Origin: Phascolarctobacterium sp.
GTDB taxonomy: Bacteria > Bacillota > Negativicutes > Acidaminococcales > Acidaminococcaceae
Direction: 5' to 3'
Assembly (NCBI RefSeq): GCF_030531065.1
Contig: NZ_JAUNOQ010000006.1
Location: 1-64,000 of the forward strand
DNA length: 64,000 nt
Notes under the pieces: model-generated
Seen by the model: only the letters and a program-made list of their open reading frames with translations
What the model was told of the DNA's origin: nothing
The model's database searches: none
Made by a program: the position numbers and the translations under genes
Shown here: one piece after another, positions 18,915 to 58,029 of the stretch
Layout of the letters: each line of letters starts with the position of its first letter
Position numbering within the stretch: position 1 is the first letter of the stretch

Positions 18915-18943
18915 TTGCGGGGGGGGTACATATGTGCTATAAT
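18915..18943 (+). promoter_or_regulatory. Adhesin promoter with a G8 tract across the -35/spacer boundary
   Basis: TTGCGG (18915-18920), a 17-base spacer and a perfect extended -10 (TGC then TATAAT, 18938-18943) precede the adhesin ATG by about 65 bases. A run of eight G (18919-18926) covers the end of the -35 and the start of the spacer. Length change in such a tract would alter spacer length. Confidence 0.6.
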
Positions 18944-19009: not shown

Positions 19010-22000
19010 ATGAATAAGATTTTTAAAGTAATTTGGAGTAAAGCGCGAGGGTGCTATGTAGTAGCGTCCGAATTCGCTAAGAGCCATACCAAAAGCGGCA
19101 GGGCGGTCAAGGCCGTAGCCGTGGCGGCAGCGGCGCTGACCCTAGGGATGAACGGGCTGGCGTTGGCGGCGGGTACTATTGGAGATTTGCCTAAAGGCGA
19201 TGGGCAAGGTATAGCTATTGGCGAAGGTAGCCATGCTGAGCATGATAGTGGGGAAAAGGAGGACAACGTAGCAGGGCATGGCAAAGATATTGCTATAGGA
19301 AGCAATGCTCAAGCTTTAGGCGAAGCGTGGACAGATGATGGAATAACATATGAAGGCAATAGCATCGCCATAGGTTCCGAAGCGTTGGCTCAAAAATACA
19401 GCAGCGTAGCTATAGGAAGTGGAACAAAAAGCATGGGCGTGTATAGCACGGCGTTAGGTTTCGATTCGCAGGCGCTTGGAAATAGAAGCGTAGCTATGGG
19501 CGTTGCTAGTTTCGCTATAGGCGACCATTCCATAGCTTTTGGCGAAAATGCAGCTACAGCCGATGTTCAATACAACGCTGATGGTAGTATAAAAGTGGAC
19601 GAAAACGGAAATCCTGAATACAATACTGCTGGCTTTAAAGCTGTCGCTATTGGTGAAAACTCCGCCGCATATGGAGATAGCAGTATAGCAATTGGCGACG
19701 GAACCAAAAGCACGAACGAGAGGGGTACGGCGTTAGGCAGTAATTCGCGAGCGCTTGGAAGCAGAAGCGTGGTTATGGGCGTTTCAAGTTATGCTATAGG
19801 CGATCGTTCTATAGCTATTGGTGAAAATGCGGCAACAGCCGAAGTTAGCTACAACCCAGATGGCAGTATTGAAGTGGATGAAAATGGGAATCCTAAATAT
19901 AATACAGATAAGAAAGGTTTTAAAGCTGTCGCTATTGGCGAAGCTGCTGTAGCATATGGCACTAGTAGCATAGCGATGGGCGACGGTGCCAAAGCGTATG
20001 CTCAATATAGTACTGCTTCCGGCATTCAGGCGAGAGCTTCAGGAAATAATAGCACGGCGATAGGCCATTATTCTATAGCTAACTCAACAAACGATACGGC
20101 TGTGGGCAGTAATGCGGAAGCGCTAGGTTCCTATGGTACTGCTGTGGGTAAAAGCGCACATGCAGTATGTAATAACAGTACTGCGGTTGGAGTTTCAGCG
20201 AGGGCCGCCAGCGGTTATAGCGTAGCTATAGGCGATACCAGCGTCGCTGCTGGAGATAATTCTTTAGCTTTAGGCTCAAATGCAAGCACAGGCACAGTTG
20301 TGCGTGGTGATGATGATAAAATCATAATTGATCAGCATAATGGAAAGGTTACAGTTAATACTTATGCTAAAAACGCGGTAACTATCGGGGCTTATTCTTC
20401 GGCCGAAAAGGATAATAGTACAGCTATAGGCTATAAGGCAATGGCAAAGGGCCTATATAGTACAGTCGCAGGCGACAATGCAACAGCAGAAGGAGATTAT
20501 AGTTCTGCTTTCGGTAATGAGGCACACTCAATCGGGGCTTATAGCATAGCTGTGGGTTCTAAATCGACAGCAAACGATAAGTCGAGCGTAGCTTTAGGTT
20601 ATCAAGCTGACGCTATTGGAGAAGACAATGTAGCTTTAGGTTCTTACTCTGATAATGCATATTTTGATACCGAAGGGTACAGGGGCTACAGCAATACCAC
20701 CGTATATAAGGATGGGAATGTCGCTGTTTTTGGTACGTCCGACGGTAGTTTAACTAAATTGAGTTTGAAAGTAGGCGACTTTGCCGGGTGGGGCAGTCAA
20801 GTCTATGGTACGGTCAGTGTGGGTTATACTGATGATAAAGGCGGCATTCATACCCGTACCATCACCAACGTCGCCGCAGGTATGATTGCTGAGGGTAGCA
20901 CGGACGCTATCAACGGTAGCCAGCTATACGCGGTGGCCAAAGGGTTGCAGGATCAAATTGATAAAGCCAATAACGACGACCATTACCATACGGTCAATGG
21001 AGAAAAACCAAAAACTGACGCCAGCGATAGTACAACCGGTGATGCTAGTGGTAATGCAAGTTCTGGAAATAACAGTAACAATAATAATGCAGGAAGTACG
21101 GTAACTGCTGGCGGCGCTACAAATACAGGCGTAGCTGATGCTGGGTCTGACGAAAGCACCGATACTTCTAAGGGGCATGAGCCTACGGGTGATGTTCCCG
21201 AGTTAAATGAAGGTTATATAGGCAACAAGGGTAATTTGTCTATCGAGTATGCTACCGATAAAGATGGCAAGAAATACTACGACATTAGCATGAAGGATAA
21301 TCTTGACCTTAGCAATACCGGCAGTATTAAGTTTGGCGATACAAATAATACCTATATTGACGGTGATGAAATCAAGATTGGCGATACGCATATCACCGAC
21401 AAAAGCGTAAAAGTTGGCGATACCTTCAACATCGATAACAGTAAAAAAGAAGTTACCGTCGGCAAAAATGTTAATATCGATATGGGCGATAATATTATTC
21501 ACAACGTAGCTCCCGGCGTTGCCGATACCGACGCCGTGAACGTGAGCCAGCTGAAAGAACTGAACCAAAATATCGAAAACAACTCCGTACAAATCAACAA
21601 GCTCAAAGGCCGCATCGATAAGGTAGGCGCAGGCGCCGCCGCGCTGGCTGCGCTGCACCCGCTGGATTTCGACCCGGACGACAAATTCTACCTGAGCGCG
21701 GGCTACGGCCATTACCGCGGCGAAAACGCCGTGGCTGTGGGCGCGTTCTACCAGCCTAACGACGATACGCTGTTCAGCGTGTCCAGCACCGTGGGCAACG
21801 ACGACGATATGATTAACGCCGGTATTACCTGGCGCTTTGGGCAGCAGAGCCATCAGTCACGCTCCAAGAAGGCGATGGCGAAAGAAATTATCGAGCTGCG
21901 TACCGAGGTGGCGGAACTGAAGGCCATGGTCTACAGCCTGACGGGTTACGGCCTGGATTTGGAAAAGAGCAAGCTGTTCCCCGACACGCCGGAAAACCAC

Positions 22001-22267
22001 TGGGCTTACGATTACGTGGCGGTAGTAGCTGGCAACGGTATTCTGGAGGGCTACCCCAACGGCCAGTTCGACGGCAGCAGGCCGATGACGCGCTACGAGA
22101 TGGCGGCTGTGGTGTACCGCCTGCTGCAAAAGGGCGTGCAGGTGGACAACCGCATGATTCAGGAATTTGCGCCGGAGCTGGCGCGCGTAAGGGTGGACAC
22201 CTTGACGCATTACAACGACGGCACACCGCATATCCAGCGCGTGCGCGTGATCAAGGGACGCGGCTAA
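19010..22267 (+). CDS. Trimeric autotransporter adhesin (YadA/Hia type) with C-terminal SLH domain
   Basis: This 1085-residue surface adhesin is exported by Sec and anchors its own trimeric barrel. The N-terminus has an ESPR-like extension (MNKIFKVIWSKARGCYVVASE) and a hydrophobic signal ending near LALAA (about 54). Residues ~60-570 are YadA-head repeats of the form AIG..S.A.G. A neck or stalk, an Asn/Gly/Ser-rich linker (~665-730) and a coiled coil follow. The membrane anchor (about 860-944) ends in the last strand NAGITWRFG. Unusually, another 141 residues follow: a coiled coil (~955-978) and an SLH domain (990-1042, with FPDTPENHW, GYPNGQFDG and MTRYEMA). The head DNA is less GC-rich than the anchor. 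ATG 19010 follows GGAGGG. Confidence 0.93.
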   Translation: MNKIFKVIWSKARGCYVVASEFAKSHTKSGRAVKAVAVAAAALTLGMNGLALAAGTIGDLPKGDGQGIAIGEGSHAEHDSGEKEDNVAGHGKDIAIGSNAQALGEAWTDDGITYEGNSIAIGSEALAQKYSSVAIGSGTKSMGVYSTALGFDSQALGNRSVAMGVASFAIGDHSIAFGENAATADVQYNADGSIKVDENGNPEYNTAGFKAVAIGENSAAYGDSSIAIGDGTKSTNERGTALGSNSRALGSRSVVMGVSSYAIGDRSIAIGENAATAEVSYNPDGSIEVDENGNPKYNTDKKGFKAVAIGEAAVAYGTSSIAMGDGAKAYAQYSTASGIQARASGNNSTAIGHYSIANSTNDTAVGSNAEALGSYGTAVGKSAHAVCNNSTAVGVSARAASGYSVAIGDTSVAAGDNSLALGSNASTGTVVRGDDDKIIIDQHNGKVTVNTYAKNAVTIGAYSSAEKDNSTAIGYKAMAKGLYSTVAGDNATAEGDYSSAFGNEAHSIGAYSIAVGSKSTANDKSSVALGYQADAIGEDNVALGSYSDNAYFDTEGYRGYSNTTVYKDGNVAVFGTSDGSLTKLSLKVGDFAGWGSQVYGTVSVGYTDDKGGIHTRTITNVAAGMIAEGSTDAINGSQLYAVAKGLQDQIDKANNDDHYHTVNGEKPKTDASDSTTGDASGNASSGNNSNNNNAGSTVTAGGATNTGVADAGSDESTDTSKGHEPTGDVPELNEGYIGNKGNLSIEYATDKDGKKYYDISMKDNLDLSNTGSIKFGDTNNTYIDGDEIKIGDTHITDKSVKVGDTFNIDNSKKEVTVGKNVNIDMGDNIIHNVAPGVADTDAVNVSQLKELNQNIENNSVQINKLKGRIDKVGAGAAALAALHPLDFDPDDKFYLSAGYGHYRGENAVAVGAFYQPNDDTLFSVSSTVGNDDDMINAGITWRFGQQSHQSRSKKAMAKEIIELRTEVAELKAMVYSLTGYGLDLEKSKLFPDTPENHWAYDYVAVVAGNGILEGYPNGQFDGSRPMTRYEMAAVVYRLLQKGVQVDNRMIQEFAPELARVRVDTLTHYNDGTPHIQRVRVIKGRG

Positions 22268-22323: not shown

Positions 22324-23118
22324 ATGAGTAAAATATTAACTACGGCCGCGTTGTGCGGGCTGCTGGCGTTAAGCGTCAGCGGCCTGGCTGCCGCGCCGGA
22401 ACAGGATAAAGCGGCAGGAGAAAGAGCCAAGGCTACGCAACAAGCGGCAGCAGAACAAACGAAAGACGCGGCGCAGACGCAGGAGCCGGAAGAAATTACG
22501 CTGCGCGTGGCGATTACGGGGCACGAATTCGGACGCATTTACAAGGTGACGGACGAGGAGGGCAATGTGCTGCGCGCGGACCTGGGCAAGCACGGCGGGC
22601 GTATGCTGAACCGCCACCCGTTTATGCTGACGGCGGAGGTGGACGAGGACGAAAAGGGCGAGGTATTGAAGCTGAAGAAGGTGGAATACGTCGACCCCAT
22701 GCCGCTGATTGAAAAGCAGCCGGAAAAATTGGGCAAGGAAGTTAAGGAAGAAACGCATAAGCTGGAGGATTACCGCGACCACGCTTACGGGCACGCTTTG
22801 AGCAAGAGCCATCAGAAGCGATTTTACCAGTACAATATGGCCAACTTGAGCGAAGCCGATTTGTCGTCGTACAAGAAGGTGGACGTAGCCGCTATCGCTA
22901 ACGAGGAAGCTGGAACGAAGGTGGCCTTTGTTGGCAGCGCGGTGCGGACAGTGAAGAACGACGAAATCATCCGCTTCTGGGGCGGGCCGGTGAAGGGCGG
23001 CCACGTGGAAGTGCTTATGAACGAAGCGTATGTGCCGTTGGGACAGCGCAGCACGGTGTACGGCACGGTGCAGGAGGACGGCAGAGTGTCGTTGGAGCGC
23101 CTGGACAGCGTGGAGTAA
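22324..23118 (+). CDS. Secreted protein of unknown function with OB-like C-terminal region
   Basis: This 264-residue protein starts at ATG 22324 behind GGAGGTAG (22311-22318). It has a clear signal peptide (SKILTTAALCGLLALSVSGLAAA in two parts), then a charged Ala/Gln/Glu-rich stretch (about 25-55). A beta-rich segment beginning ITLRVAITGHEFGRIYKV follows, then a helical, His/Lys-rich middle. The C-terminal 80 residues alternate strands (TKVAFVGSAVRTVKN, STVYGTVQEDGRVSLERL) like an OB fold; this is inference. No Cys lipobox is seen. It begins 56 bases after the adhesin gene with no terminator between, so it may be a periplasmic accessory factor of the adhesin. Confidence 0.7.
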   Translation: MSKILTTAALCGLLALSVSGLAAAPEQDKAAGERAKATQQAAAEQTKDAAQTQEPEEITLRVAITGHEFGRIYKVTDEEGNVLRADLGKHGGRMLNRHPFMLTAEVDEDEKGEVLKLKKVEYVDPMPLIEKQPEKLGKEVKEETHKLEDYRDHAYGHALSKSHQKRFYQYNMANLSEADLSSYKKVDVAAIANEEAGTKVAFVGSAVRTVKNDEIIRFWGGPVKGGHVEVLMNEAYVPLGQRSTVYGTVQEDGRVSLERLDSVE

Positions 23119-58001: not shown

Positions 58002-58029
58002 TTGACTGGGGGGGACAAGGGGCTATAAT
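58002..58029 (+). promoter_or_regulatory. Polysaccharide locus promoter with a G7 tract in the spacer
   Basis: TTGACT (58002-58007), a 16-base spacer starting with seven G (58008-58014), and a perfect TATAAT (58024-58029). The transcript would start about 100 bases before the sugar transferase gene. Confidence 0.7.

Follow-up and report, generated by a model that had tools for sequence, protein, structure and literature searches.

Trimeric autotransporter adhesins in which the membrane anchor is followed by an SLH domain are known from Veillonella. In the sections on domain layout, Poppleton 2017 (PMC5491611) describes three V. parvula adhesins with an SLH domain behind the anchor, proposes a periplasmic, peptidoglycan-binding role for it and states that only Negativicutes have this arrangement. 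The corresponding sections of Bechon 2020 (PMC7549365) assign a post-barrel SLH domain or coil to all Veillonella adhesins, extend the SLH-tailed layout to other Negativicutes, again with peptidoglycan binding as the proposed role, and mention other post-barrel domains in other phyla. The same text describes trimeric autotransporters of Streptobacillus moniliformis that also carry a peptidoglycan-binding domain behind the barrel in the same chain, there of the OmpA family instead of SLH. Novelty of the YadA_anchor–SLH architecture is thus ruled out by PMC5491611 and PMC7549365, and the adhesin reported here is a real and well-supported member of the kind already described. The Veillonella Vta proteins of strain SKV38 share its order of anchor and SLH domain and differ from it in species and passenger. 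What our analysis adds to this kind is a residue-level link to OmpM, a hairpin in the tail, a partner gene and a promoter type, and neither the hairpin nor the OmpM-type residues are discussed for the Veillonella SLH adhesins in the sections cited.

Two further systems are closely related in principle. OmpM (VpOmpM1, PDB 8BZ2/8BYM/8BYS), which takes over tethering in these bacteria without Braun's lipoprotein, is likewise a trimeric barrel of the outer membrane; each chain carries one OmpM-type SLH domain, giving three in the trimer, and a coiled coil makes the connection. Its SLH domain is N-terminal and its barrel a porin, whereas in the adhesin the SLH domain is C-terminal and the barrel is a type Vc translocator for a surface passenger. 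AtaA of Acinetobacter sp. Tol 5 is a trimeric autotransporter coupled to peptidoglycan from the periplasmic side, as proposed here, but two proteins are involved: the AtaA barrel is bound by the separate periplasmic peptidoglycan binder TpgA, which doubled the extraction force in simulation (PMC13082670), while the present adhesin has its SLH domain on the same polypeptide.

The window analysed is a stretch of 64,000 nucleotides of Phascolarctobacterium sp. (assembly GCF_030531065.1, contig NZ_JAUNOQ010000006.1, positions 1 to 64,000), in which the adhesin occupies positions 19010–22267 of the plus strand, stop codon included, as a single uninterrupted frame of 1085 amino acids; its domains, the promoter-like site in front of it and the partner gene behind it lie on the same strand. 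Its Pfam matches are all above the gathering cut-off and comprise an ESPR extended signal peptide (residues 1–45, 19010–19144, PF13018, E 1.2e-16), a YadA_head repeat region of 14 stretches (residues ~115–547, approximately 19352–20650, PF05658, E 1.8e-57, the bounds being approximate and derived from NCBIfam matches to further trimeric autotransporter adhesins), a stalk/neck (residues 830–867, 21497–21610, PF05662, YadA_stalk), the YadA_anchor with barrel strands (residues 888–943, 21671–21838, PF03895, E 7.9e-10) and one SLH repeat (residues 990–1032, 21977–22105, PF00395, E 8.9e-10), which is also backed by an alignment of 81 homologues. Signal, head and stalk repeats and anchor barrel are those of a type Vc protein, and a fold search with the single-chain AlphaFold2 model matched the barrel to those of Hia, AtaA and YadA. 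The barrel does not stand at the very C-terminus, as 142 residues follow the YadA_anchor match; such a tail defines a sub-kind within type Vc rather than excluding the protein from it, and according to published work such exceptions are regular in Negativicutes. With the SLH domain 3' of the YadA_anchor in one chain, the protein is an SLH-tailed trimeric autotransporter. It is not an OmpM, which is defined by an N-terminal SLH domain, a coiled coil and a porin barrel in this order. No Rfam elements were found around the gene.

The AlphaFold2 model of residues 870–1085 represents one chain of a trimer (mean pLDDT 63.6, pTM 0.38), and only its local secondary structure was used. It places four barrel strands at ~893–941, a helix at 951–978 (helix 82–109 of the modelled fragment, 21860–21943) that we regard as the periplasmic coiled coil, the two SLH helices, and a short helix followed by a terminal beta-hairpin with strands 1060–1067 and 1073–1080. 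The SLH domain gave no fold match in the search with this model, which is unsurprising with a query that models one chain of a trimer at low confidence. A preliminary description, made from the window alone, had placed 141 residues behind the barrel, a coiled coil at about 955–978, an SLH domain at 990–1042 and a basic tail, in the reverse of the OmpM order. Layout and order agree with our results, whereas the basic tail is more aptly called a conserved element: residues 1047–1080 (22148–22249, block pLDDT ~70–84) form a helix and a hairpin. Across the 81 homologues the motif EF.PEL.RIRVD.I..dkdG.P.IERVRV is kept, R1077 in 98% and R1079 in 99% of the sequences.

Five YadA_anchor proteins are encoded in the genome, of which three carry the SLH tail; over the C-terminus the two paralogues share 94% and 89% identity with the window adhesin. 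In the remaining two, a coiled coil or a short tail forms the end, a pattern described for Veillonella in the sections of PMC7549365 cited above, and so the SLH domain is not required for this type of secretion. The search for a YadA_anchor followed by SLH across the class, which had been suggested as a check, was run with a profile (A1) built from three sequences, and matches were counted by hand; with up to 12 candidates scored per genome, the numbers are lower bounds. Full-length matches of anchor, coil and SLH were found in at least 81 of 250 Negativicutes genomes from six families, namely at least 28 of 58 in Acidaminococcaceae, to which the window belongs, at least 17 of 17, 20 of 28, 10 of 11 and 4 of 4 in four others, and at least two genomes of one genus in the sixth. 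The family of the window also follows from a 764-aa frame that genome G005 and the Acidaminococcus fermentans record L084 have in common, which suggests Acidaminococcaceae. Among the named records are Veillonella parvula SKV38, Megasphaera, Dialister, Acidaminococcus, Mitsuokella, Phascolarctobacterium and Negativicoccus. The 299 phylum genomes sampled gave matches solely inside the class. The concern that the SLH region might be a mis-joined neighbouring gene, to which we give practically no chance, is ruled out by the single reading frame and by the same join in both paralogues and in the 81 genomes from six families. Phoenicibacter congonensis is an actinobacterium; the 8.5-kb contig of a MAG labelled with this name (L086, JAUMVS010000063.1) that encodes an SLH-tailed adhesin is most likely a binning error.

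The SLH repeat of the tail bears the signature of Negativicutes OmpM, made up of residues that are proposed in OmpM to recognise polyaminated peptidoglycan. In the alignment, W998, Y1000, G1022 and T1027-R-Y-E1030 of the adhesin correspond to W34, Y36, G58 and the TRYE of residues 63–66 in VpOmpM1 with identical spacing, and among the 81 tail sequences the equivalent of W34 is kept in all 81, Y36 and G58 each in 80, Y65 in 79 and T63 in 75. When a larger, roughly classified set is counted, 98 of 100 tail SLH domains and 26 of 27 N-terminal single SLH domains have Y36, whereas the residue is absent from all three multi-SLH segments seen, a small control, and from Sap of B. anthracis. The OmpM paper (PMC10628300) reports the same contrast. 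The SLH domains of non-OmpM proteins, pooled there with no separate group for adhesins, lacked a conserved Y36 as a whole, which speaks against the wall grip proposed below. The nearest solved relative by sequence is the OmpM1 stalk of V. parvula (8bz2, E 5e-10), and this alignment runs beyond the Pfam SLH match into the EF..EL segment. An annotated porin of Synechococcus phage S-SRM01 (hit H1, MW015081.1, 185045–185290) also has a match to the SLH region in the tail of the adhesin, at 40% identity (E 4e-7).

In type V secretion the barrel is the exit route of the passenger, and its last strand ends on the periplasmic side, wherefore the post-barrel tail should be periplasmic. As its SLH domain is of OmpM type, with the same tyrosines and spacing and 8bz2 as nearest solved relative, peptidoglycan binding is its most likely function as predicted from the sequence, and the number of repeats, one per chain and three per trimer, most likely provides an OmpM-like grip on the wall. 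We therefore consider it probable that the protein is a type Vc adhesin anchored twice, by its barrel and by an SLH grip on polyamine-modified peptidoglycan. Three chains would build the barrel in the outer membrane and export head and stalk through it, while the three C-termini would remain in the periplasm, where the short coiled coil would carry three single SLH repeats. These may come together as a single threefold SLH unit like that of OmpM, a unit that the three-repeat SLH proteins of Gram-positive bacteria would mimic, and could bind polyamine-modified peptidoglycan non-covalently, tying the adhesin to the wall. A pulling force on the fibre would then be borne by the wall and not by the barrel alone. 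The preliminary description had suggested that the adhesin could also be a clamp between outer membrane and wall. Type Vc topology and the OmpM-type SLH domain speak for the contact with the wall as such, but general clamping falls to OmpM, with ten copies encoded in the genome, and the adhesin more likely secures only its own hold when it is pulled. An outer-membrane adhesin can hence carry its own predicted wall anchor in the same chain, and the shared OmpM-type residues turn the statement that the tail could bind peptidoglycan into a prediction on two tyrosines.

Full-length OmpM binds the polyaminated sacculi of V. parvula and not those of E. coli, whereas its isolated SLH domain adopts a compact crystal form and does not bind V. 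parvula sacculi (PMC10628300). An SLH domain alone is consequently no guarantee of binding, and a pull-down with the adhesin fragment 945–1085 could be falsely negative. The main rival to a wall grip, which we judge unlikely without dismissing it, is that coiled coil and SLH domain form a trimerising periplasmic plug that aids assembly and prevents extraction of the barrel, as a nut secures a bolt, and that binds the wall little if at all. The AtaA simulation serves here as precedent and as support for the rival at once, since the periplasmic complex of AtaA with the N-terminal part of TpgA doubles the extraction force by itself, without coupling to peptidoglycan (PMC13082670), and the SLH-less coil or short tail kept by the other adhesins of the genome, as in the Veillonella proteins covered above, suits a plug as well. 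A mere plug would, however, have no need of the conserved W34, Y36, G58 and TRYE equivalents, which are the putative ligand-side residues in OmpM.

Considerably less probable still is that the SLH domain holds another envelope component than polyaminated peptidoglycan, be it a pyruvylated polymer, OmpM trimers or the two-OB-like protein encoded downstream. SLH domains of Gram-positive bacteria do bind pyruvylated wall polymers (as cited in the relevant part of PMC10628300), and some of the SLH adhesins have the gene of a conserved exported partner directly behind them, but the SLH residues found here are of the Negativicutes OmpM type, and as a general ligand the downstream protein is contradicted by its absence from ~93 of 109 distinct SLH-adhesin loci.

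The partner gene lies at 22324–23118, ~56 nt past the stop codon of the adhesin, and encodes 264 amino acids with a Sec-type signal peptide recognised by eye. No Pfam or NCBIfam family was found above cut-off, the Pfam BOF match (E 0.055) reaching 14 bits against a cut-off of 25.8, and a model built from a three-sequence alignment shows two beta-rich domains resembling OB folds. A relative stands directly behind each of the three SLH adhesins of the genome. Among 250 genomes of the class, 13 contain 17 distinct copies, 16 of which directly follow an SLH adhesin on the same strand with a spacing from a 7-nt overlap to 142 nt; for the lone exception (L195, G233:C20:5458–5952) there is no SLH adhesin upstream, and its N-terminus was not found. 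Copies behind SLH adhesins (window 22324–23118, L003, L005, L020, L022–L025, L052, L056, L057, L060, L063, L072 and L079, the last from Anaeroglobus geminatus) come from several Negativicutes families. The partner is the only widely recurring downstream family among the 109 distinct loci, present at ~16 of them with 15 in one cluster, which rules out a general partner for all SLH adhesins; behind the one copy examined from V. parvula SKV38 (L078), none was detected. We regard the protein as a putative anchoring or assembly accessory of the adhesin. Auxiliary genes also stand beside SadBA and further adhesins (Grin et al. 2014, as cited in part of PMC13082670), where the small envelope protein that accompanies the adhesin is a trimeric lipoprotein, while the partner is modelled as two OB-like domains and shows no visible lipobox. 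If confirmed, it would add a biogenesis or anchoring factor. The literature searched, which covers work on C-terminal extensions and auxiliary genes in part, contained no description of the partner gene or of the promoter type below.

Upstream of the adhesin, at 18915–18943, lies a promoter-like site, TTGC-GGGGGGGG-TACATATGTGC-TATAAT (TTGC-G8-N11-TATAAT), with a tract of eight G within the spacer between −35 and −10. The paralogues have TTGACC-G7-ACAAGCGTG-TATAAT and TTGACA-G7-ACAAGCGTA-TATAAT, so that all three SLH adhesins of the genome carry a G7–G8 tract inside the spacer. A scan with the sigma-70 consensus missed the site in front of the window adhesin, owing to its degenerate −35. The pattern GGGGGGGN{7,12}TATAAT has 24 matches in the genome, one tract being counted twice, against none for the reversed control; sites are located at window positions 18915–18943 and 58002–58029, at G000:C9:93759–93786 and G000:C22:8364–8385, and at ~20 further places. 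The promoter type precedes ~20 genes, mostly surface ones, among them nine PF03797 autotransporters, the three SLH adhesins, a ShlB/FhaC transporter, a TonB-dependent receptor, sugar transferases and OmpM, and a few sites precede other or unclear genes. A wider form of the pattern gave ~127 matches, summed by hand, in 58 of 300 genomes of the class against 4 in reversed controls.

Slippage-type promoter switches are known for Neisseria, and a homopolymer between −35 and −10 is what characterises such a phase-variable promoter. Within the one assembly, two promoters whose flanks are almost identical have tracts that are one G apart in length (C14:97578 with G8, C22:8364 with G7). The sequences suggest that the G-tract promoters control a candidate phase-variable surface regulon switched by tract length through slippage; a fixed promoter element also fits, for which the narrow range of G7–G8 speaks. 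If confirmed, the promoters would give a common gut lineage a candidate means of switching its surface repertoire. Taking both neighbours of the adhesin together, it is a tentative possibility that one sub-lineage possesses a two-gene module, in which a wall-tethered adhesin is co-transcribed with an exported two-OB-like protein that supports or modulates the way it is anchored, and that in this genome the module belongs to a large surface set switched by G-tract length, which would comprise adhesins, classical autotransporters, the TpsB transporter, the TonB-dependent receptor, sugar transferases and OmpM under a shared promoter type. Directly upstream of the −35 at many of the G-tract promoters (L207, L211, L212, L215, L216, L222 and L223) we observe a palindrome, CAAAAGTGC-TCGA-TGCACTTTTG or AAAGTCGC-TCGA-CGCGACTTT, which is a candidate terminator of the preceding gene or a candidate operator.
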